From Bacteroidales bacterium (GTDB lineage: Bacteria > Bacteroidota > Bacteroidia > Bacteroidales > JAAYUG01): a stretch of 32,097 bases of DNA. A model generated the notes under the pieces. It did not search any database. It saw nothing but the letters and a program-made list of their open reading frames with translations, and was not told the DNA's origin. This document shows, piece by piece, positions 7,022-19,386 of the stretch. Within the stretch, counting starts at the first letter, position 1. Each line of letters begins with the position of its first letter. The position numbers were made by a program, and so were the translations under genes. The stretch spans positions 1 through 32,097 of the forward strand of contig JAAYUG010000075.1 of NCBI GenBank assembly GCA_012517825.1, in the 5' to 3' direction.

Positions 7022-8635
7022 CTACTTTTCAAAGGAAAACTTGTACATCTCGTTTTTCTTCGGAGCTGTATCAAAGATAATTGCAGAAGTTATATAAACA
7101 CGGGTATCCTTCGATTCCGGACGTTTTTCCCCTGTAACCACAAGCCGCACCGTATGGGTACCCGGCTTAAGGCCCATGACATGCCAGATGCTTGTTGTAT
7201 GCTGCTGATTGGCAAAATCATAATAGGTATCAATCGTGCGGTGAAGTTTCCCATCTACGTACACATCAGCTTTACCGCCATCCCTGTACCAGTTTCCTTC
7301 GATTGAAATGCCTGTCCCCTGAAATTCCAATACCAGTTCATCGCCCTTAGCGAATGCATACATAGACTGTTTGGTTTTCTGATTATTCCGTTCAACTTCA
7401 AAAGGTTTCCAGTTACCTTTGAAGGACCAGCCCGGTTCAAAAACCGAGATCTTCCTTGAGAAGACCACATCCGGGAAGGAAACTTCAAGGGCAGGTGCCA
7501 CAGGTTCCTGCCTTTTGATTTTTATCTCATTTTCCCCTACCTTTCCCCCATTCCGGGCAATCAGGTCAAGGGCATATTTATATGTATTGTCCACTGCCGA
7601 ATTGAAGGAATAGCTGGTGTGAATAAAAACCGAATCAGCCACATTGCGGACGCCTTCCTGCATATATTCAGGCAGCCCGCTGAAACCCTTTATGACGCCC
7701 AGAACAGCCAGTGCGTTGGATGGATTGCAGTCGGAATCCTGACCGCACCGGGTTGCGATCTCCAGTGTTTTCATAGGATCCCCCTCTCCGTAAAGGAGGC
7801 CCATTGCAATGTAGGCTCCATTGAGCTTGGCGTCAATATTAAACGGATTGCCTGCACCGCAAATGTCCACATCGCCCCACTTTGCCTCCAGTTCCTTCCA
7901 TGCAGCCTTCCAATCGTCAGGATAATGCCTGTGCAACGCTATCACATCCTGAATGATTTTGTAATAATCGCTTTCCGCAGGAAGTGACCTAAGAGCATTT
8001 TCAATTATTTTGTTAATGTCGGATTCAAAGAAAGCTTCGGCGTACAATGCAGCTACAAAAACGCCGCCATATACGCCGTCACCATAATTCATAATATGCC
8101 CGATTTTATCAGCCATCTGCAGGGCAGTTTGCGGCATACCCGGACACATAAATCCGATATAATCTGCTTCTATTTGAAAATCAATATCATCGGCATGAAT
8201 ATTGTACTCAGGACTTCCTGAAGCAGGAGGGAAAATGCTGTCGTAATAGTTTTTCCGGGCCTGCATATTGGCATGCCATAACCAGTAACCGGCCTTGGCA
8301 AACATTTCGTGAAACTGTTTGGCCGGGGCATCGATGCCGTACTTGTCCATTGTCATCATGAAGGTAAGCTGAACGTACAGGTCGTCCTGCCAGATGCTTC
8401 CTTTTATATCGGCCGGTGTCCAGCGGATGGAATCCTCAAAGATCCGGTTCATGGCATGGAATTCGGTCGGAGCGCCATACGTCACCCCTATCATTTTGCC
8501 GGCCCAGCCCCCGGAAATTTTGTCTTTCAAAACATCTGGACGGATGGTTTTGTATTCGTTTGCCTGTTTGCAGCCAGCAACTTCAATAAGAAACAGAAAA
8601 AGAAAAAGATACTGAACAGACACTGCTTTTTTCAT
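7022..8635 (-). CDS. ADP-ribosylglycohydrolase-family lipoprotein with C-terminal beta-sandwich
   Basis: I start at 8635, not at an in-frame ATG 60 bases upstream, because this gives a clean lipoprotein signal: MKKAV, a hydrophobic core, then VAGC with the lipidated Cys at residue 22. The 537-residue product has a helical ADP-ribosylglycohydrolase (DraG-like) domain at about 30-345. Metal-site motifs are WQDDL (residues 82-86, the TDDT position of classical enzymes), HADDID near 148, and GQDSDCNPSNALAVLG from 298. A C-terminal part at about 385-537 looks like a carbohydrate-binding beta-sandwich (GKADVYVDGKLHRTID, then GLKPGTHTVRLVV). The family cleaves bonds to ADP-ribose. Export and its place at the end of a PUL argue for an exogenous glycoside or nucleoside-like substrate here, which is inference. 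It is probably anchored on the cell surface or in the periplasm. Confidence 0.85.
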   Translation of the reverse strand: MKKAVSVQYLFLFLFLIEVAGCKQANEYKTIRPDVLKDKISGGWAGKMIGVTYGAPTEFHAMNRIFEDSIRWTPADIKGSIWQDDLYVQLTFMMTMDKYGIDAPAKQFHEMFAKAGYWLWHANMQARKNYYDSIFPPASGSPEYNIHADDIDFQIEADYIGFMCPGMPQTALQMADKIGHIMNYGDGVYGGVFVAALYAEAFFESDINKIIENALRSLPAESDYYKIIQDVIALHRHYPDDWKAAWKELEAKWGDVDICGAGNPFNIDAKLNGAYIAMGLLYGEGDPMKTLEIATRCGQDSDCNPSNALAVLGVIKGFSGLPEYMQEGVRNVADSVFIHTSYSFNSAVDNTYKYALDLIARNGGKVGENEIKIKRQEPVAPALEVSFPDVVFSRKISVFEPGWSFKGNWKPFEVERNNQKTKQSMYAFAKGDELVLEFQGTGISIEGNWYRDGGKADVYVDGKLHRTIDTYYDFANQQHTTSIWHVMGLKPGTHTVRLVVTGEKRPESKDTRVYITSAIIFDTAPKKNEMYKFSFEK

Positions 8636-8753
8636 ACTTTTTGTTTTTATTAGTTTTACAATCGCTATTGTTTTTAAACAGAAACCACAATGCATTCCTT
8701 TGTGGGTACTTCTTCCGGATGGCGGAACACGTCATATATAGGCCGAAATTCCC

Positions 8754-8889: not shown

Positions 8890-10663
8890 TTATTTCATAA
8901 CAGCCTTCCGATTGGAAGCATTAACATATCCCCCTTTACCGTTGATAATACTTTTTACAATACTTTCCCTGTTGCCGTTTAACCAGAAGATTACCTTGTG
9001 GTAAAGGGAATCTTCCAGGGCCGGAGGTGTTTCAATCGCCTGGTCAACTACAATGGGTGCATCATAAAATACGTTATATATACCAAGTCCCCATGCATGA
9101 TGTACATTCACAGAGTCAGCCACTTTATACGAAGCATACCCAAATGTAGTGCCGTGTTTCCATTCATCGACCGATGGTGGGTCATATGGCATTTCGCTCT
9201 GGTAAAAGTACACCCGGCCATTTTCTCCATTCCAGATAGTCTGGTATTCCTGAAAATGTTCATTGAACAATCCATAAATCGTAACATCATTGCCGTTAAC
9301 AACCAGACCATTGGCACACCGGTTTTTGTTCCAACCTACTCCGTTGCCATGATCAGCTCTCCAGATCCATATATGATCAACATAAACATCATTACTGTTG
9401 ATCGTTAAACAACGGGAAACATTACCTTCGCGAGCACCACCCACACGGAAGAATAAGTCAAACAAAAAAGACGGATTGGATTCGTGATCATTTTTTGATC
9501 CCGGTTCTCCTACCTGCATTAAAGTTTCTGAAGGAATTTTCCCAGCATCAATCAGCAGGCCCGCAACAGTTATGCCGTCTTTGTCAGAAATTTCGATAAC
9601 CTTGTTTCCATTCACCGGTATTAATGTAGGAAAACCGAGTCCTATAATCACTGTTCCCGGACGAAATACCCGGATACTTTCTGACAGAAAGTAGATTCCC
9701 GGAGTAAAAAGTATATGCTTTCCTTTTTTCAGGGCTTTGTTAATGGTTTTTGAATTGTCGGCAGCGGCCTTCGCGATATAAAAATCCTTCAATGCAAGCG
9801 TTCTTTCCTGATGATTGCCATTCCAATCCACACCGCATGAATTTTTCTTTATGCCGGGAATTTTCAACATCAGTTCTTTTCCTGAAAATACCCAATAGGG
9901 TTTTTCACGAACTTCCGGAGTAACTGCAACGGCAGTATAAGGCTTCTCCGGCCAGTTTTCTTCCGGTGCATTGATTGTTCCCACGTATACCATATTCCAG
10001 ACTCCGCCGATCCATTTATTGAAAACAGAATTTCTTGTGAGCCATTGCTGTTGTGAACCGGAATAGACTGTTCCGTCGATTCTGCAATTGGCCATAAAGC
10101 CTCCGCTGGAAGGACCATCAAACAATTTCAGGTCGCCCTTGATATAAACACGCCGCAAGGGAGAAGCCTGGGAAACAGCCCAGGTATTCACTGAATCGGA
10201 AGCCGGCAGGATGGTAATGTTTTCCGCCGCCCGCCAGAAATTGCACAACACATGCCCCCCCTGCGATGCAACTGACCGAACGGCCCCCACTATAACCGTT
10301 TCTTCAGGGGAAATCCCGAGCCCCATCACATGTGTATAGTAACCCACTTTCACATCAAGATGATAGACTCCGGGCTTGAAAAGCAAGGCATACCGATTCT
10401 GGGTAAACTCATTTTCGGGAAATAGCTGACCGGAATAAATCGTATCAATAAGTGCCTGTATTTCGGCCATATTCATTGAAGGATCAAATACAAATACATT
10501 CTCACCTAATGGTGACCTGTTGAAACGGGAGGCTTGTTCTCCGGCCCTTTTTGACAAAGGGATCGATGTGTTTCCTTTTAAAGGCTGGGCATAATTCTCC
10601 TGCCAGCCAATTATGCAAAAAAAAAATACCTAACAATAACCAATGTCTCATTGCTTCAATCAT
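8890..10663 (-). CDS. Secreted right-handed beta-helix glycan-active protein, frameshifted in its signal peptide
   Basis: The body (8890 to about 10616) encodes a pectate-lyase-fold protein with PLGENVFVFDPSMNMAEIQ, LFKPGVYHLDVKVGYYTHV, VDHIWIWRADHGNGVGWN and YFYQSEMPYDPP. From memory, this set of motifs is shared with actinobacterial secreted proteins often mislabelled adenylyl cyclase and with GH55-like beta-helix glucanases. The exact CAZy family is uncertain. In its own frame the body has no ATG; the first usable start is TTG at 10557 and leaves no signal peptide. A good start exists upstream in another frame (ATG 10663, overlapping the GH27 stop, or ATG 10651), encoding MRHWLLLGIFF. The two frames meet in the ten-base homopolymer at 10617-10626. 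With nine T (or twelve) the product reads through as a normal signal peptide ending near ENYAQ. This could be phase-variable, a fresh mutation or a sequencing error. Confidence 0.75.
10617..10626. repeat. Ten-base poly-A/T tract at the frameshift point
   Basis: Ten A on the plus strand, so ten T in the coding strand of the beta-helix gene, sit inside the hydrophobic core of its signal peptide. Length 10 puts start and body out of frame. Length 9 or 12 puts them in frame. Mononucleotide runs of this size are prone to slipped-strand mispairing and also to sequencing error. Confidence 0.9.
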
Positions 10664-12206
10664 TTTTAATTTTCTTTTTGCTGATTCTCACCATCACAAC
10701 TCCCTGCGGGGGCACCCTGGCCGTAAATGCCTCTTTATAGAAGCCCAGATTTTTCTGATGCCAGAGATCCCGGACAGCATATTTTCCGGAAATACCAAGT
10801 TTTGGCCAATCAACGCTCATCTCCTCTTCGTTTTTTCCTCGGTTAAAAAGACCAACAGCAACAGAACCATCAGAAAGATGCTTGAACATGATAAAAGTAT
10901 TCTGTGTTTCGGAAATAACCTGTCCGCATTCACCCAGAATATCCTGATTCACTTCAATTACTTCAGGATTGCATAGCACGTTTAAAGTGAACGCGTCCAG
11001 CTTCGACATATCTCCGCTATAGATCAGAGGAGCCGCCATCAGGCACCAGAGCGACATATAGGCATATTGCATAGCCGGTTGCATAAGGGTATGTTCTGGC
11101 ATTCCCATTTTGTGGGCATTTCCAATCCATCCAATCTGTATATAGTCCGGGTCATTCCATTCGCCGGGTTTAGAGTACTGTCGGTGCTTTGCGTTATTGA
11201 CCGCAACGTCAAAAATACGATCCAGTTCAAAACCCAGATCACCCGAAGTACGCCAGCAATGGCCACCCACTTCAGCGCCCCATTCCCATACATTTGCCAT
11301 TCCGTACTGGCAAAGATTGAATACAACATCATGGTCTAATGATTTCAGGATATTTCCCATCAGCCGGTATGGTTTCTTAAAAGTTTCGGGGCTGGTATCT
11401 TTTCCCGCAATTTCAAAATACGAACACCAGTCATATTTGAGAAAATCAAAGCCCCAGTCAGCAAACTGCCTTGCATCCTGTTCTTCATGCTGATAAGAAC
11501 CTGCGAAACCGCCACAGGTCAAAGGTCCGGGTGAAGTGTAAATGCCTGCTTTAAGCCCAAGGGAATGAATATAATCCGTAAGCCCTTTCATATCTGGGAA
11601 ATAGTAATTGGGAAGGATGTTACCATTTTGATCCCTGAGAGGCCCAGTACGCATTGTATCCTTATTTTTCGGTGCATTGGCCCATCCATCATCAATGTTT
11701 ACGTATTGGTAACCGACATCGGCCATTCCGCTGCTTATTATTTTATCGGCCGCCTCACGTACCAGGGAATCTGTTATCCTGTCGTAATGAGCATACCAGT
11801 GATTCCATCCCATAGGCGGCGTTAGGGCAAGTTTGTCGCCTGCAACGATTCTCAGTTTCCGTTTGTCTTTCCCTTTAGAGTTTTCGGCGGTAATAATCAG
11901 ATCATATTCTCCTTTTTCCGGAGTAATCCCGCTGATAATTCCCTTCACAGGATCCAGCTGTAATCCGGATGGCAAATTCTTAACGGTAAACCGTAAAGGC
12001 CTTTCCCCCTGGCAGGGGATTCGGTAAAGGAATGGTTTGCCGGGTCGGCATCCATATACCAAAGGGCCATTAATCCGGGGTTTGGATTCCGGAGAAGGGG
12101 TCCATATCAAAGCATCTTCATGGGCATTATCAGAAACCTGCTGAGCCGATAAAGGAAATACCGAAATGCACCCAATGGCAAGAAAAAGCAGGAAAGGCCT
12201 TTTCAT
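10656..12206 (-). CDS. GH27 alpha-galactosidase-like enzyme with N-terminal Ig-like domain
   Basis: A 516-residue secreted enzyme with a signal peptide ending near PLSAQQ. A putative Ig (He_PIG-like) domain covers about residues 50-122 (GLQLDPVKGIISGITPEKG, then YDLIITAENSKG). A GH27 TIM barrel starts at PPMGWNHW. Catalytic marks are all present: NIDDGW at 170-175, the nucleophile D259 in KYDWC, and the acid/base D323 in WRTSGD. GH27 enzymes are retaining and mostly alpha-galactosidases; some act on alpha-N-acetylgalactosamine or beta-L-arabinopyranose, and the motifs alone do not separate these. It is the first enzyme gene after the susD terminator. Its stop overlaps by eight bases the upstream start candidate of the beta-helix gene, which suggests coupled translation. 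Location is periplasmic or surface. Confidence 0.93.
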   Translation of the reverse strand: MKRPFLLFLAIGCISVFPLSAQQVSDNAHEDALIWTPSPESKPRINGPLVYGCRPGKPFLYRIPCQGERPLRFTVKNLPSGLQLDPVKGIISGITPEKGEYDLIITAENSKGKDKRKLRIVAGDKLALTPPMGWNHWYAHYDRITDSLVREAADKIISSGMADVGYQYVNIDDGWANAPKNKDTMRTGPLRDQNGNILPNYYFPDMKGLTDYIHSLGLKAGIYTSPGPLTCGGFAGSYQHEEQDARQFADWGFDFLKYDWCSYFEIAGKDTSPETFKKPYRLMGNILKSLDHDVVFNLCQYGMANVWEWGAEVGGHCWRTSGDLGFELDRIFDVAVNNAKHRQYSKPGEWNDPDYIQIGWIGNAHKMGMPEHTLMQPAMQYAYMSLWCLMAAPLIYSGDMSKLDAFTLNVLCNPEVIEVNQDILGECGQVISETQNTFIMFKHLSDGSVAVGLFNRGKNEEEMSVDWPKLGISGKYAVRDLWHQKNLGFYKEAFTARVPPQGVVMVRISKKKIKND

Positions 12207-12312: not shown

Positions 12313-13848
12313 TCATGGCTTCAGCCACCAGGGAATCTGATTGATTCCGTCATATCCCCCGTACTGCTCATCAATGGCTTTTTTATAGTTTTCGGGGTTA
12401 GAGACTTGTTCGTCGGTGGGATATTTCCAGCGTTTCGGATAAACGGTTTTGTCATCGGGGTTCATGCTGGTGTTGGGATCCAGAGGAAATTCGGGATATC
12501 CCGTCCGCAGGAACTGAGCATAATTTAAACCGTTACCCTGGAAGAAGTCAATAAGCCACCTCTGGTACCAGATCTGGTGCAGACGATCTTCCTTGGTTCC
12601 TGATGTTGCATATGCTGCAGCACCGGTGAAATAATTATCGATATACGCCTGGTCGATAGCCATGCCATGGGTATAGGACGCAGGAGCAGAAGGCAGAGTT
12701 CTGTAAAAATCAAGCATAGCCCTTACTCCGTTTTCATAATAATCTTTTGCATTTCCTGTAACCCATCCTTCTTCAATAGCTTCAGCAATAATGAAGCATT
12801 GTTCGGCGTAAGTAAACTTGAACATCGGATCGCCGGCCCTGAAATCTCTGTACCGTTTATTGATCAGGGAATACATGCCATTCTGATTGTTAACCGAAAG
12901 TTGTTCGGCTATTAATTCCGTAGGTGCACCTACATAAGCATCAAAATCGCTTTCCAGTTTACCGGCACTTATCTGAGCCGGTGCAGGTTCTGCAAAGTAG
13001 AACAACCTGCGGTCCTGCAGTTGGATTAATCCGTCAACAACGAGTTTGGACAGGGCGATGTACTTTCTTCTGTCTTCACCATTCCAGAAAGGATGGGATG
13101 CGTTGGGATTATCGGAATAAGCCAGCTGGAAATTGTCAGCATTACCGGTCATCAGGTTGCCGGCTGCCACAATTTCAGCAAACCGGGCTTTCTGTGCCGC
13201 AGTTGCTTTTTTACTGATGGTCTGAATGACCTTCAGTTGCATGGCATTGCAAAGCCTGCGCCATTTGGCAGCATTGCCTCCCAGCATTATGTCACCTTTG
13301 AAGTCTGCACCATTGGCAAAATCTTCTTCAGCGGCTTTCAGATCATCCAGGATTTCCTGAAACACATCCTGTTGTTTGTCATATTTAGGCCTGACAATTC
13401 CTTCTTCTGCCTTACCGGCTTCAGAATAAGGAATATCGCCCAGGTCCAGAGTTATCCAATAACCGTACCAGGCTTTCATGAACAAATACAACCCTTTAAG
13501 TGAAGATTCATAAGGGGTTCCGGCAGCAAATTCAACTGCTCTCTTCAGATCGGTAAGATTCTTGAACGACCCGAAACCGCCGTAAGGCCAGTATGAGTAA
13601 TAGTATTGATACGGATTGGGGTTTGGTTCACAAATAGCGGTATGCTTGCACCACAGATTTCCTGTGCCAAAATCGGTAGGGTTTGGATTCCAGAACCTGA
13701 AAGAATTTTTCAATACCTGTGTAACAAGCATTTCAGGTGCCACCGATGTCGGTGCATCCGGATTTGTATTTAATTCCTCAAAATTACTGCAGGAAACAGT
13801 AATTGCAAGAGAAATTACAAATAGAAAGATATAATGGATCTTTTTCAT
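12313..13848 (-). CDS. susD: SusD/RagB-family surface glycan-binding lipoprotein
   Basis: A 511-residue lipoprotein with a signal peptide whose lipobox ends in VSC (Cys20), followed by SNFEELNTNPDAPTSV, the usual mature N-terminus of SusD-like proteins. The central region is rich in Trp, Tyr and helices, with KAWYGYWITLDLGDIPYSEA and WRRLCNAMQLKVIQ, typical of the TPR-containing SusD-like fold. The C-terminal part carries YQRWLIDFFQGNGLNYAQFLRTGYPEF and the WKYPTDEQ segment of the SusD_2-like subgroup. SusD binds oligosaccharide at the cell surface and forms the lid of the SusC transporter. It follows susC after 12 bases and ends 53 bases before a strong terminator. The glycan bound is not readable from sequence. 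Confidence 0.95.
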   Translation of the reverse strand: MKKIHYIFLFVISLAITVSCSNFEELNTNPDAPTSVAPEMLVTQVLKNSFRFWNPNPTDFGTGNLWCKHTAICEPNPNPYQYYYSYWPYGGFGSFKNLTDLKRAVEFAAGTPYESSLKGLYLFMKAWYGYWITLDLGDIPYSEAGKAEEGIVRPKYDKQQDVFQEILDDLKAAEEDFANGADFKGDIMLGGNAAKWRRLCNAMQLKVIQTISKKATAAQKARFAEIVAAGNLMTGNADNFQLAYSDNPNASHPFWNGEDRRKYIALSKLVVDGLIQLQDRRLFYFAEPAPAQISAGKLESDFDAYVGAPTELIAEQLSVNNQNGMYSLINKRYRDFRAGDPMFKFTYAEQCFIIAEAIEEGWVTGNAKDYYENGVRAMLDFYRTLPSAPASYTHGMAIDQAYIDNYFTGAAAYATSGTKEDRLHQIWYQRWLIDFFQGNGLNYAQFLRTGYPEFPLDPNTSMNPDDKTVYPKRWKYPTDEQVSNPENYKKAIDEQYGGYDGINQIPWWLKP

Positions 13849-13860
13849 GACTGAACAAAA

Positions 13861-16800
13861 TTAGAAGGTAAGTTTAACATTAAAGCCCACGTATCTGACG
13901 GAAGGATCCTGGAAATCGGAAGCACCGCCCGCGTTGGTTCCATAAAGGCTGTTTTCACCTCCGTCAGGGTCAGAGTAAACAAAGTCTTTTGCCCAGAGCA
14001 GAATATTCTGGCCAACAAAGCTGACCGAAGCAGATTTTGCCAGCTTGGGAATGTATTTGCCCGGAAGATCGTAGGTCAAAGATACTTCGCGTAATTTCAG
14101 GAAGGTCTTTGAGTAGGTATCAGGCCTGGTTCCGCGGCCACCCCATGCACTACTGTTGTGCAAATCAATGATATATTGTTTGTAGCTGGTATAAACATCA
14201 TTGGGAGCATATTGGCGGGTATCGCTCGTGATGTTACCAAACTGATCATAGGTTACTGAGCCGGAAACTACCTTAACACCCTTTCCGAGGAAGTTTCTTG
14301 AACCGGGAGTTGCAACATCCAGTTCTCTTTCCTTGGTAACAGATTTTGGATGAACACCTGCCTGCCACATATAGCTTTCTGTACGTTCGGTTATCAGACC
14401 ACCAACCACACCATCCATTGAAACGAATAATGTGAAATTTTTAAATTTCAAGGTTGAATTCAACCCCCAGATCCAGTCAGGATCATAGAATCCAAACCTT
14501 GAATCATACTGGCTTGTCATGAGCCTTCCGTTATTAAAGATATATTCTCCGGTTGCAGGAACCTTCACAAAATCTTTGCTCACAAAAGCATCGACGCGTT
14601 CACCAACCTTTACCCATGGTTTCTTGTCTGAATATACAGAATCCAGCTGTGTATAGTAGCGGGCGTAAGTTGTCCAGTTAATGCCCAGATCCCATTGTAC
14701 ATCCCTGCTTCTTACAGGAGTAGCGTTAACAGCCACTTCCCAGCCACGACGGGATATTTCCTCATCGATGTTCACATAAAAGCTGGTGTAGCCTGAAGCT
14801 GCGGAAAGGGGAGCGTTCTTCAGGAAGTTGAACATGTGTTTGTCATAGTAGGCAACATCAACTGAAAGTCGGTTTTTGAAAACAACTCCCTGCATACCAA
14901 CCTCAAATGTTGTAGAGGTTTCGGGGAGAACACTCGGGTCGTACAGAGAGGAAGGTGCGGTTGCTCCATTCAGCGTATTCCAGGTAGAACTATTCAGTGT
15001 ATAGGTGCTCTTGACAGCATAAATTGCCGGGGGTGTCTTTGACATGGTCCATGATCCCCTGAGCTTCAACAGATCGAGCCAGCTTTTTGTTCCGGGGAGA
15101 AGTTCCGACAGAATAAAACTGGAAGAAATCGACGGGTAGAAGTACGAACGTGTAGATTCCGGTAATGTTGAACTCCAGTCATTTCTGCCTGTTGCTTCAA
15201 CATAGATCAGTTTATTCCATGAAAGAGCCAACCGGCCGAACAATGAGTTCACCTGCTGGCGGTAGGTGCTCTGAGAAATTGTCGGAGGATTTACCGAGGC
15301 CTTGATGGAGAAAAATCCCGGAACAGAAATTCCGCCCACGGTCTGGGCATACATATTGTAATCCTGTGTATAATAAATTGTTCCACCGGCCAGGTATTCG
15401 ATACCGAACTTTCCAAAAGTTTTATCACCTGTTAACAGCAGGTCATTGTTCATACTCAGACCCTGTGTCTGGCCAATGTTATACCCGCCTGTCCATGCTC
15501 CGTTCCATGTCCACGGGTTTCCGGGAATAGGCGTGTTCCCTGTGGATGTATATGAACCCCAGGAAACTCTTTGCACGCCCCTGTCGGTATAAAAATCAAG
15601 ACCGGAACGGATACTGGCTTTCAGCCAGTCAGTAATCTGATAACTGCTTAGCACATCTGCATTGAAAATATCGCGCGATACTTCATTGGTTCTCTCATAT
15701 CTGTCGAAATAGGGATTGTTGGATTCGGACCGGTATGTCCAGTTTTGTGACTGTTTTGGTATGAGCCAGTAGTCCTTATAATCCCGAACGTCGAAATCAC
15801 TTGGAGTCCATATGAGAAGCGAGTACATGGGATCGTAGGATGTATACCCATTGGAACCCATGTTGGGTGAATACCTCCGTGCATAAGACAAATTGGAACT
15901 GATTTTGAATCTGCCAGTATTGACATCTCCGCTTAATTTGTAAGCATATTTATCCAGCATGGAATTAGGGTATATTCCTTTGTTTTCAGTCCAGTTTACT
16001 GAGCTTCTGAGAGAGATAACCTCACCTTTATACCCGACGCTGAAATTATTGTTGGTGACATACCCCTGTTCCAGAAAATTTTTGAAGTTGTCTTTCCCAA
16101 GGGGTAAATATTCATAGTCACGGTAATCTTTCAGTACAGGATCCCATTGATTCTGTATCGATCCGTCCATTTTGGTACCCCAGGAACTGGTAGAGTTCTT
16201 ATCGTACGTATTATTACTTCCGCGACCATAAACAGCTTGTTTTTCAGGTAGTGCCAGAAAGCCCGCCGTAAACATGGTGTTGGTAGTAAAATCGGCTGTT
16301 ATTCCTGACTGATTAGCACTTCCGTTTTTGGTGGTAATGAGGATAGCCCCGCTTGCTCCGCGATAGCCATAAAGTGCGGAAGCAGTAGCACCTTTCAGAA
16401 CACTGATTGATTCAATGTCTTCAGAAGCTATATCACTTAATTTTTTATTGTTATAAGGTACTCCGTCAATAACCAGAAGGGGATTTTCACCACGCAAAGT
16501 ATAGCTGGGAGCTACAGCAAAATCGGTAGTATTTTTAACCAGAAGCCCGGCCACCTTACCGGTCAGGGCTGTGGCAGCTTCAACTCCCATTACTTTCTGG
16601 AGGCTCTCTCCATCTACTTTCTGTACAGCATAACCCAGAGCCTTTTCTTCACGTTTGATACCCAGAGCCGAAACCACAACTTCTTCCAGATTGACGACTT
16701 CTTCACTCATCTGAACATCAATGGTATTGTCAGTACCGATATTTATCTGAACCGACTGCATACCAATAAATGAAAAAGTAAGGCTTTTGGCTCCCTGAGG

Positions 16801-17319
16801 GATTTCAATACTGTACTTTCCGTTAACATCGGTTATAGTGCCGATCGTCGTTCCGGTAACAACTACATTTACCCCCGGCAGAGGATTCCCGTCCTTATCC
16901 TTCACCGTACCGGTAATTGTACGCTGCTGAAAAGGCGATAAAATACCCGCCTGATCACCAGAGGCAAGAATTATCTGCTTGTCGTATACAGCAAACTTGA
17001 CTTCTCCTTTGAAAAGGTCATTGAGAATGTCCTTGATGCTTTTATTTTCTGCCTGAATATTGACCTTTTTGTCAACATCTATCAGCTTTGGGCTGTACAG
17101 AAAATAAAATTCACTTTGATTCTCAATTTCCTTTAGAGCATCAGAGATTTTAACATTTTCAAGTTTCAGAGTCAGTTTTGTGGCCTGCGAATAACTCTCA
17201 GTTGCGAAAATCTGAAATACTGCCACAAATGTCAGTAGAATGGTTAGCTTCATGATTCTGATGGTTTTTTTTAACAAGTATCCATTAGGAAACTTATTAT
17301 CATCTCGAAAATCTTTCAT
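13861..17319 (-). CDS. susC: SusC/RagA TonB-dependent transporter with N-terminal STN signalling domain
   Basis: A 1152-residue outer-membrane transporter. Order of domains: signal peptide (core KLTILLTFVAVFQIFA, cleavage near SYSQA at residue 45); STN secretin/TonB short N-terminal domain at about 50-105; carboxypeptidase-like regulatory domain from RTITGTVKDKDGNPLPGVNV; TonB-box-like EEVVVSALGIKREEKALGY; plug with LVIDGVPYNN and SVLKGATASALYGYRGASG; then a 22-strand-type barrel to the C-terminus VRYVGFNVKLTF. The STN domain is the part that reports substrate to a FecR anti-sigma factor, and fecR and a sigma gene lie directly upstream. It imports, with SusD, an oligosaccharide that is not identified here. 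In-frame starts further in (IMKLTI) are possible, but a long leader is common in this family. Confidence 0.96.
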   Translation of the reverse strand: MKDFRDDNKFPNGYLLKKTIRIMKLTILLTFVAVFQIFATESYSQATKLTLKLENVKISDALKEIENQSEFYFLYSPKLIDVDKKVNIQAENKSIKDILNDLFKGEVKFAVYDKQIILASGDQAGILSPFQQRTITGTVKDKDGNPLPGVNVVVTGTTIGTITDVNGKYSIEIPQGAKSLTFSFIGMQSVQINIGTDNTIDVQMSEEVVNLEEVVVSALGIKREEKALGYAVQKVDGESLQKVMGVEAATALTGKVAGLLVKNTTDFAVAPSYTLRGENPLLVIDGVPYNNKKLSDIASEDIESISVLKGATASALYGYRGASGAILITTKNGSANQSGITADFTTNTMFTAGFLALPEKQAVYGRGSNNTYDKNSTSSWGTKMDGSIQNQWDPVLKDYRDYEYLPLGKDNFKNFLEQGYVTNNNFSVGYKGEVISLRSSVNWTENKGIYPNSMLDKYAYKLSGDVNTGRFKISSNLSYARRYSPNMGSNGYTSYDPMYSLLIWTPSDFDVRDYKDYWLIPKQSQNWTYRSESNNPYFDRYERTNEVSRDIFNADVLSSYQITDWLKASIRSGLDFYTDRGVQRVSWGSYTSTGNTPIPGNPWTWNGAWTGGYNIGQTQGLSMNNDLLLTGDKTFGKFGIEYLAGGTIYYTQDYNMYAQTVGGISVPGFFSIKASVNPPTISQSTYRQQVNSLFGRLALSWNKLIYVEATGRNDWSSTLPESTRSYFYPSISSSFILSELLPGTKSWLDLLKLRGSWTMSKTPPAIYAVKSTYTLNSSTWNTLNGATAPSSLYDPSVLPETSTTFEVGMQGVVFKNRLSVDVAYYDKHMFNFLKNAPLSAASGYTSFYVNIDEEISRRGWEVAVNATPVRSRDVQWDLGINWTTYARYYTQLDSVYSDKKPWVKVGERVDAFVSKDFVKVPATGEYIFNNGRLMTSQYDSRFGFYDPDWIWGLNSTLKFKNFTLFVSMDGVVGGLITERTESYMWQAGVHPKSVTKERELDVATPGSRNFLGKGVKVVSGSVTYDQFGNITSDTRQYAPNDVYTSYKQYIIDLHNSSAWGGRGTRPDTYSKTFLKLREVSLTYDLPGKYIPKLAKSASVSFVGQNILLWAKDFVYSDPDGGENSLYGTNAGGASDFQDPSVRYVGFNVKLTF

Positions 17320-17478: not shown

Positions 17479-18561
17479 TTATTTATTCCGGTAATACAGA
17501 ACAACTTTTCTTTTCGAAAAAATTCCCTGACTTTTTTCCTGCCGGTTTGAAATGGTGTAGTTTACAGGAGAGATCAGAGACATGAGTTCCATTACCTGCT
17601 GAAGGTTTTCGTCAACAAAAGTAGCTGTGTATGTAAGTTCAAGAAGTTTCGGATCAGCAATTTCAATTTCAACATTAAACCATCTGCTCAGTTTTTTAGC
17701 CACCTCACCGAGTGGTTCATTATGAAAAACAAGCTTCCCGTCTTTCCAGGCAAAATACCTGTCATCATCTATGATGCGTTGGGTGATTTTCTTATCAGAC
17801 TTGTGATAAATGACCATATCAGCAGGTTTCATTTCCACAAGGGTTACCTTTCTCTTTCCAGGGTCCGAGCGCTGTAAAACCACCACTCCTTTAATCAGGG
17901 AAGTTTCGATTTTATCCTCTTCCGGATAGGCCATAACATTGAATTCGGTTCCAGTTGCCATTATCTGAATATCTCCGGCTGAAACCACAAATGGTACCCT
18001 GCGGTTGGAAACCACCTCAAAATAGGCTTCTCCGTGAAGTTCAACATCACGGCTTCTGCCCCTGAATACAGCAGGGTATTTCAGAGAACTGCCATGATTT
18101 AACCATACCCTTGAACCGTCGGGCAAAGTAACCTTTGAAATGGCATCCACCGATGAAAATACTTCATTATAAGCCTGATTGCCTGAAGCTATGCCATTCT
18201 GCCCGGTATAAAACTTAACCGACATCAACACACTGAATCCAAGGAGAGGAAGCATCAGCACGGCTGCAATCCGTGAAAAAACACGCCAAAAGGTTCCAGT
18301 ACCTGATGATAAAAACCCGAAAGGTTTTTCTTCCAATGTTTTTGTGTGGATCAGATTGACCTTGTGATGGATTCTGTCAAGAATACCTTCATAGTTTGCA
18401 GGCAATTCCTCTTCATCAGCCTGTATCTCTTCCCAGTAAGTATATAACAGATTTCTGCCTTCTGTGGTTTCAGCACCTGATGTAAACCATTCCAGAAGAG
18501 TTTGCAATTCTTCCTGTGTGCATCTGTTACTGAAATATTTTCGCAGAAGTTCGATGTTCAT
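17479..18561 (-). CDS. FecR-type anti-sigma factor
   Basis: A 360-residue inner-membrane regulator. The N-terminal cytoplasmic part (MNIELLRKYFSNRCTQEELQ onward) is the anti-sigma segment. One membrane span lies at about residues 92-118 (SRIAAVLMLPLLGFSVLMSV). The periplasmic FecR domain follows (VTLPDGSRVWLNHGSSLKYP, ELHGEAYFEV, TGTEFNVMAYPEE). The C-terminal DUF4974-like domain (LVFHNEPLGEVAKKLSRWFN, then VEIEIADPKL) is similar in fold to STN and would touch the SusC STN domain. It keeps the sigma factor at 18799-19386 inactive until SusC senses substrate. It is separated from the sigma gene by 237 bases with a strong hairpin, and from susC by 159 bases. Confidence 0.95.
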   Translation of the reverse strand: MNIELLRKYFSNRCTQEELQTLLEWFTSGAETTEGRNLLYTYWEEIQADEEELPANYEGILDRIHHKVNLIHTKTLEEKPFGFLSSGTGTFWRVFSRIAAVLMLPLLGFSVLMSVKFYTGQNGIASGNQAYNEVFSSVDAISKVTLPDGSRVWLNHGSSLKYPAVFRGRSRDVELHGEAYFEVVSNRRVPFVVSAGDIQIMATGTEFNVMAYPEEDKIETSLIKGVVVLQRSDPGKRKVTLVEMKPADMVIYHKSDKKITQRIIDDDRYFAWKDGKLVFHNEPLGEVAKKLSRWFNVEIEIADPKLLELTYTATFVDENLQQVMELMSLISPVNYTISNRQEKSQGIFSKRKVVLYYRNK

Positions 18562-18583
18562 TTATTTCTCCTTTCATTCTTAA

Positions 18584-18628
18584 GGGTAAACAAGCACCTC
18601 TGCAGCATGCCCGAGGTGCTTGTTACCC
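18584..18628 (-). promoter_or_regulatory. Long inverted repeat ahead of fecR
   Basis: GAGGTGCTTGTTACCC at 18613-18628 pairs with the complement at 18584-18600 with a single bulged base, a stem of about 16 base pairs around a 12-base loop. It ends 23 bases before the fecR start. On the minus strand it is followed by TTAAGAATGAAAGGAG and no T tract, so it is not a classical terminator. It could trap the fecR leader, stabilise an RNA end or bind a protein. Confidence 0.6.
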
Positions 18629-18650
18629 ATTCTGACTAATCAACCAACCA

Positions 18651-18674
18651 TACTAACTAACCGACTAACTAACC
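18651..18674. repeat. Short tandem repeat in the sigma-fecR spacer
   Basis: Two copies of a 12-base unit, TACTAACTAACC and GACTAACTAACC, lie side by side, each built on ACTAACTAACC. Looser versions (ACTAATCAACCAACC) continue to their left. The array sits next to the long inverted repeat ahead of fecR. Function unknown. Confidence 0.6.
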
Positions 18675-18798
18675 AGCCCTTTTGTTAAACCTTTTTCAGG
18701 AAATCTATCCTGTTTTGATAGTATGACGCAAAAACAAAAAAATACCACTACCGGGAATTAAAAAAAAGTAAAAAAAATTAAAACCTAGAAAATCAATG

Positions 18799-19386
18799 CT
18801 ATACAAAAAGAAACCAGAAAAGCAACCCCATTAAAGAATAGGAACCGAGTTTGTCGCGGATAGTCCTCAGTGCCCTTGCCATATGGTTTTCAATGGTATT
18901 AACAGAGAGATTCAGACGCTCAGCGATTTCAGCATATTTTAAACCTTCCACTTTGTGCATTAAATAAATCTCCTTCTGACGCTGAGGCAGGCCATTAATT
19001 ATTTCCTCGAGCCTCGTTTCCAGTTCCCTGTAATTCAATGCAACATCAACAGGTACATCACTTGGTTCCTGCAATGATTTCAGATACTTAAAGAATTCAT
19101 TATCCTTTGCCTTTTTCCTTAAAAAGGATATGGCCGAATTGTAAGTAACCGTAAACAGAAAGGATTTTACCGAAGCATTATTTTCCACATTGAATCTGTG
19201 CTCCCATAAGCTCAGAAACACTTCCTGCAGAAGATTTTCTGTTTCTTCCTTTGATTTAAGAAGGGAATAACCAAATTTATAGATGCGACCACAATATTTT
19301 TTGTATAGCAGGTCAAAGGCCAGCATATTGCCCGCCTTTATTTCCATCATAAGATCCTCATCCCTGCCAATGGATATTTCTTTCAT
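18799..19386 (-). CDS. ECF sigma-70 factor (FecI-like)
   Basis: A 195-residue extracytoplasmic-function sigma factor of the Bacteroidota PUL type. Region 2 is at about residues 20-92 (FDLLYKKYCGRIYKFGYSLL, EETENLLQEVFLSLWEHR, SVKSFLFTVTYNSAISFLRK). Region 4 is at about 125-178 (GLPQRQKEIYLMHKVEGLKY, AEIAERLNLSVNTIENHMAR), which reads the -35-like element. The protein ends in an unusually hydrophobic tail, SLMGLLFWFLFV. It is held by the FecR protein encoded just downstream and should switch on the susC operon when SusC is loaded. It is divergent from gyrB across a 643-base gap. Confidence 0.94.
   Translation of the reverse strand: MKEISIGRDEDLMMEIKAGNMLAFDLLYKKYCGRIYKFGYSLLKSKEETENLLQEVFLSLWEHRFNVENNASVKSFLFTVTYNSAISFLRKKAKDNEFFKYLKSLQEPSDVPVDVALNYRELETRLEEIINGLPQRQKEIYLMHKVEGLKYAEIAERLNLSVNTIENHMARALRTIRDKLGSYSLMGLLFWFLFV

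Follow-up and report, generated by a model that had tools for sequence, protein, structure and literature searches.

A run of ten T separates the start codon from the body of a predicted GH55 exo-beta-1,3-glucanase gene in a Bacteroidales polysaccharide locus

The window, by which we mean the whole stretch of 32,097 nucleotides analysed here, comes from a draft genome of 3.30 Mb in 207 contigs that is 95% complete, and the genes discussed below all lie on its minus strand. Furthest upstream are genes which we take, having named them by eye from their sequence, to encode a FecR-like anti-sigma factor and an ECF sigma-like factor (17479..19386), followed by what are presumably SusC-like and SusD-like genes (12313..17319). 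These are followed in turn by a GH27 (alpha-galactosidase-like) gene at 10656..12206, the GH55 gene with which this analysis is concerned, and a gene of the ADP-ribosylglycohydrolase fold (7022..8695), recognised by a profile match and belonging to the same PUL-like cluster. The PUL setting that had been proposed from the letters alone is thus upheld by the SusC/SusD-like genes and the GH27 gene upstream. The TGA of the GH27 gene overlaps the start region of the GH55 gene, an arrangement also seen in the sister genome described below. The ADP-ribosylglycohydrolase-fold gene, which adjoins the glucanase gene, additionally displayed a sub-threshold CE2_N-like match at its C-terminus.

The body of the GH55 gene occupies an open frame at 8890..10629. 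It gave no match to the Pfam, NCBIfam or PHROGs models; a PDB sequence search matched residues 15-524 to the structures of SacteLam55A from Streptomyces sp. SirexAA-E (4pew and 4pex) with an E-value of about 1e-140 (best 1.8e-140). The residues could be mapped onto the Streptomyces enzyme with an offset of 44, and all 11 residues named in the available text of PMC10637969, from which the residue roles were taken, agreed with the letters of the chain. Ten of these 11 active-site and subsite -1 residues are identical in the window protein, namely Phe152, Gln174, Ser198, Trp444, Trp446, Asp449, Glu480, His481, Glu502 (the general acid in SacteLam55A) and Tyr505 (its helper, PMC10637969), while the position of Thr149 is taken by Leu. 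On the strength of the PDB match and the conserved active-site residues, the body is assigned from its sequence as a predicted enzyme of the GH55 exo-beta-1,3-glucanase type. It is present in a single copy in the genome and, in contrast to SacteLam55A, is found in a SusC/SusD-type cluster with its export signal out of frame.

The frame break was located as follows. Two minus-strand ATG codons, at 10663 and 10651, lie upstream of a homopolymer of exactly ten T (plus-strand A10, 10617..10626) that falls within the signal-peptide codons. The first of these opens MIEAMRHWLLLGIFF and begins a frame of 53 codons (10502..10663), which encodes the start and the hydrophobic core and then continues through out-of-frame residues to a TGA at 10504-10502. 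The open frame of the enzyme extends from 10629, directly after a TAG at 10632-10630, to 8890, and scanning this frame for alternative starts revealed no ATG, GTG or TTG ahead of a TTG at 10557. The sequence-only reading, in which a start in one frame and the enzyme body in another were separated by ten T, is therefore borne out by the sequence and its frames. When read by hand with nine T, the gene encodes MIEAMRHWLLLGIFFCIIGWQENYAQ followed by P (PLKGNTSIPL...), a signal peptide of the usual kind, cleavage region included; twelve T also restore the frame, with one extra Phe. The enzyme frame is reached, again by hand reading, through one U fewer or two more in the message, which is equivalent to a +1 shift at the ribosome. 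Ordinary -1 ribosomal frameshifting was considered as a means of rescue and rejected, as by hand reading it leads into the third frame and an immediate TAA. A role of the T-run as a terminator was likewise set aside, with no terminator-like hairpin adjoining it and no T-run in the sister genome.

The comparison set offered two genomes in the genus and three in the family, our own included, with one genome per species. The same-genus sister genome (76% complete) carries the orthologous GH55 locus on JAKPTE010000037.1. The encoded protein is 82% identical, has the same overlapping start, homologous to that of the 53-codon frame, and is read in an intact frame through MTDKIRMWLLFGILCIMMNWLENFAQ followed by P at the end of the signal peptide, without any T-run. 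Where the sister has ATT TTA TGC ATA, the window has ATT TTT TTT TTG CAT A. Alignment placed the gain of bases past GGT/C-A and ahead of the shared anchor TGCATAAT (read by hand), that is, in the T-run; counted by hand, the window has four bases more than the sister before this anchor and three fewer after it, so that with one T less it is in frame. The expectation that nine T would give a secreted protein thus agrees with both the hand reading and the frame of the sister. The further claim that the run is the only place where the two frames could be joined needs some softening. The junction itself is correct by alignment to the sister; the ATG frame and the enzyme frame, however, overlap from 10629 to about 10502, though a join away from the T-run would cost the protein its hydrophobic core or its YAQ end. 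The frame break in the assembled sequence is thus real and well placed, in a single-copy, constrained gene for an exported GH55 enzyme.

The break would be harmless if translation began at TTG 10557, which is in frame with the body and lies past the signal peptide, to give a cytoplasmic enzyme. This was examined against 80 GH55 loci from named genomes, of which three were partial and two cut at the 5' end, leaving 75 with complete 5' ends. In 72 of these 75, an in-frame Met precedes a hydrophobic stretch, the exceptions being L008, which has the hydrophobic stretch but no ATG, together with L060 and L068. A start at TTG 10557 would forfeit this signal peptide, and a cytoplasmic exo-glucanase would make little sense in a PUL; we consider this explanation barely credible.

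Selective constraint on the body was assessed by the method of Nei and Gojobori. Over 555 codons, which contain no stop, the window and its sister differ with a dN of 0.101 and a dS of 1.015 (dN/dS about 0.10), and the two halves of the body are alike (dN 0.108 and 0.095). The corresponding values of dN and dS in the neighbours are 0.110/1.017 for the GH27 gene and 0.076/0.814 for the ADP-ribosylglycohydrolase-fold gene. Against two outgroup loci, L005 and L009, for which dS is saturated, dN was 0.179 and 0.202 for the window, and thus not raised above the 0.190 and 0.214 of the sister. The GH55 body thus displays no sign of decay and is under constraint like that of its neighbours, although a break of very recent date would leave the same dN/dS as none at all. 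The lack of decay implies that the break is very young, bypassed or not real.

The last of these possibilities, an error of sequencing or assembly, had been named as the main alternative from the outset, and homopolymers were surveyed across the genome. Maximal A/T runs of exactly eight numbered 415, those of exactly nine 50 and those of at least ten 16, a steep fall such as selection against long runs would produce. A crude gene caller with a minimum ORF length of 90 codons was applied to all 66 A/T runs of at least nine, and flags were inspected by eye. Twenty-seven of the 66 lie inside uninterrupted ORFs, a transposase OrfA and a handful of questionable ORFs among them. A scan for fusions flagged ten loci, eight of which were natural starts past the tract, antisense to an intact gene, or noise (L152 being judged noise by eye); the remaining two were the GH55 gene and an insertion-sequence transposase. 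In a sample of runs of eight A (30 loci from the 415 matches), 18 of the 32 tracts fall within intact ORFs; of the two flags, one proved to be a natural start and the other an artefact of the antisense strand. All three G8 tracts of the genome lie in intact ORFs, and a further flag, L168, belongs to the sister genome. Since frames are intact at other long runs and appear broken only at the GH55 gene and the transposase, general miscalling of homopolymers in this assembly is unlikely. Among the 16 A/T runs of at least ten, the GH55 run was the sole gene-breaking one found; as such runs are rare, we judged this break to lie beyond chance.

An error confined to this single site is another matter. 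If the cells in fact carry nine T and secrete a normal GH55, one wrong base suffices to explain the assembled sequence, the corrected frame is exactly that of the sister, the ordinary constraint on the protein is accounted for, and the sequence does come from a draft genome in many contigs. Against this stand the intact ORFs at other long runs, by the crude caller, in the survey of A/T runs of at least nine and in the A8 and G8 samples described above. Thus while systematic error has become less likely, a single-site error, somewhat unlikely in our estimation, is the most serious competitor of the explanation we prefer.

The transposase break (locus L146, contig C160 of the genome) concerns an IS3-like element with an A9 run at the OrfA/OrfB junction and Pfam matches to HTH_Tnp_1 and rve. 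Frameshifting between OrfA and OrfB is a known habit of insertion sequences, and the A9 run is likely to be the site of a programmed frameshift.

The sequence-only reading had also suggested that the T-run might serve as a slipped-strand on/off switch. As a frame-setting repeat tract in a single locus, the ten-T run has the form of SSR-mediated phase variation, and an evolved switch between nine (ON) and ten (OFF) at a high rate could draw on the location of the tract, which falls in the signal peptide of an enzyme that is exported and single-copy, on the exact plus-one state and on the undecayed body. A slipped-strand variable sialidase gene of Gardnerella, nanH3, is moreover cited as SSR-mediated phase variation in the available portion of a 2025 review (PMC11868660); slippage in a glycosidase gene is common to both, though the GH55 tract is known from one assembled sequence. 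No T-run of nine or longer was found near the start in any of the 77 GH55 loci scanned, the longest being of eight T (L014, L016 and L031), with an A9 in L006. Retention of the tract in relatives, which would support but is not required for such phase variation, was thus not observed, and the ten-T tract is, across the sequences compared, private to this genome. A scan of viral contigs for further occurrences of the locus, whatever its tract length, gave no matches. Grounds for abandoning the switch had been seen in relatives that encode the segment without a homopolymer, and the same-genus orthologue takes the case half of the way. The same review, in the text available, requires reversibility and a minimal rate for a gene to be called phase-variable and cautions against chance tracts. 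A strict literature search, with all terms required, returned no paper on homopolymer phase variation in Bacteroidetes. With the tract private and long tracts scarce in the genome (16 A/T runs of at least ten and three of G8), an evolved switch appears very improbable.

A different route to export would be open if ten T were fixed and RNA polymerase produced a mixture of U9, U10 and U12 messages, a fraction of which would then be exported as protein. The locus has the form looked for in transcriptional slippage, an A/T run of at least nine at the break with an indel in the RNA of that run restoring the frame. The body is constrained and a +1 shift is needed, so that -1 ribosomal slippage offers no rescue. 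T10 falls in the class of runs described as slippage-prone (PMC1088944, available text), poly(T) is given as the preferred slippage substrate of the E. coli RNA polymerase (PMC6260861, likewise), and a break at an A/T run need not prevent a gene from yielding full-length protein (PMC1088944; PMC4256274). The precedent in the available text of the latter, tssM1 of Citrobacter rodentium, is also broken at a long mononucleotide run with the remainder intact; in contrast to the GH55 gene, its run is A11 and the insertion in RNA was shown there, while our T-run is known from DNA alone. The sister and the 77 relatives checked lack the tract, and the homologues thus displayed neither the conserved run nor the conserved frame break expected of functional slippage; the break at the A9 of the transposase, moreover, could be ribosomal. 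We therefore regard tolerated or functional slippage at a fixed T10, as the whole explanation, as doubtful. Slippage nevertheless qualifies the assertion that ten T turn the gene off, which overlooks it: on a T8 run, E. coli RNA polymerase restored the frame by deletion in about 10% (PMC6260861, available text), and the GH55 gene with ten T is probably leaky in this way.

In our preferred explanation, to which we assign close to an even chance, the tenth T arose very recently, by slippage, as an indel in a tract that happens to be mutation-prone. The privacy of the tract and the paucity of long tracts in the genome speak against an evolved switch. The gene product would be a secreted GH55 exo-beta-1,3-glucanase. 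The codons for the signal-peptide core, ATT TTA TGC in the sister, may at first have held a short stretch of T that lengthened to an in-frame run of nine T, and a further, very recent replication slippage may then have taken nine T to the ten of the assembled consensus. On this view the sampled cells, or at any rate most of them, would truly carry ten T; most messages would then lead to a dead-end peptide of 53 residues, and one-U slippage by RNA polymerase together with frequent back-mutation could keep some export-competent enzyme. Comparable cases are siaD 7C of Neisseria meningitidis serogroup B and mga of group A streptococci, accidental or mutation-prone tracts in which indels switch a gene off and which, in the available text of the review, are not classed as evolved phase variation (PMC11868660); variants have been observed for both, in contrast to the GH55 tract with its one assembled sequence.

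A slippage indel in a functional gene is also favoured by a second exported glycosidase of the same genome. This GH116-like gene (locus L141, contig C142, 2192-4343) contains a run of nine T that leaves its signal peptide in frame, and its tract shares the wording TATTTTTTTTTGCAT with that of the window except for one T; no orthologue of the gene was found in the sister genome, which is 76% complete. Quite apart from any switch function, T-runs are likely in signal peptides on account of their Phe codons.

If the ten T are real, a single slip turns off, or makes leaky, the single-copy exported enzyme of a polysaccharide locus; the Phe-rich codons of a signal peptide would be an easy site for T-runs, and export of a public-good enzyme a natural mutational target. 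It could even be envisaged that a T9/T10 slippage switch, at the level of DNA or RNA, sets glucanase export so that clonal exporters live beside non-exporters, 'cheaters' using the sugars released by others, a proposal that we hold to be improbable. If the tenth T is an error, the locus illustrates how apparent pseudogenes in draft genomes can hinge on one base.

Two further features of the gene were observed. In a predicted fold of the minus strand (window 10590-10680), the A-rich end of the GH27 gene pairs with U10 through weak A-U pairs, with a z-score of -2.5 and 4 of 200 shuffles equally good. A G7 run at 10255-10261 of the same GH55 gene is in frame; in the sister the same codons hold G6 and then A.
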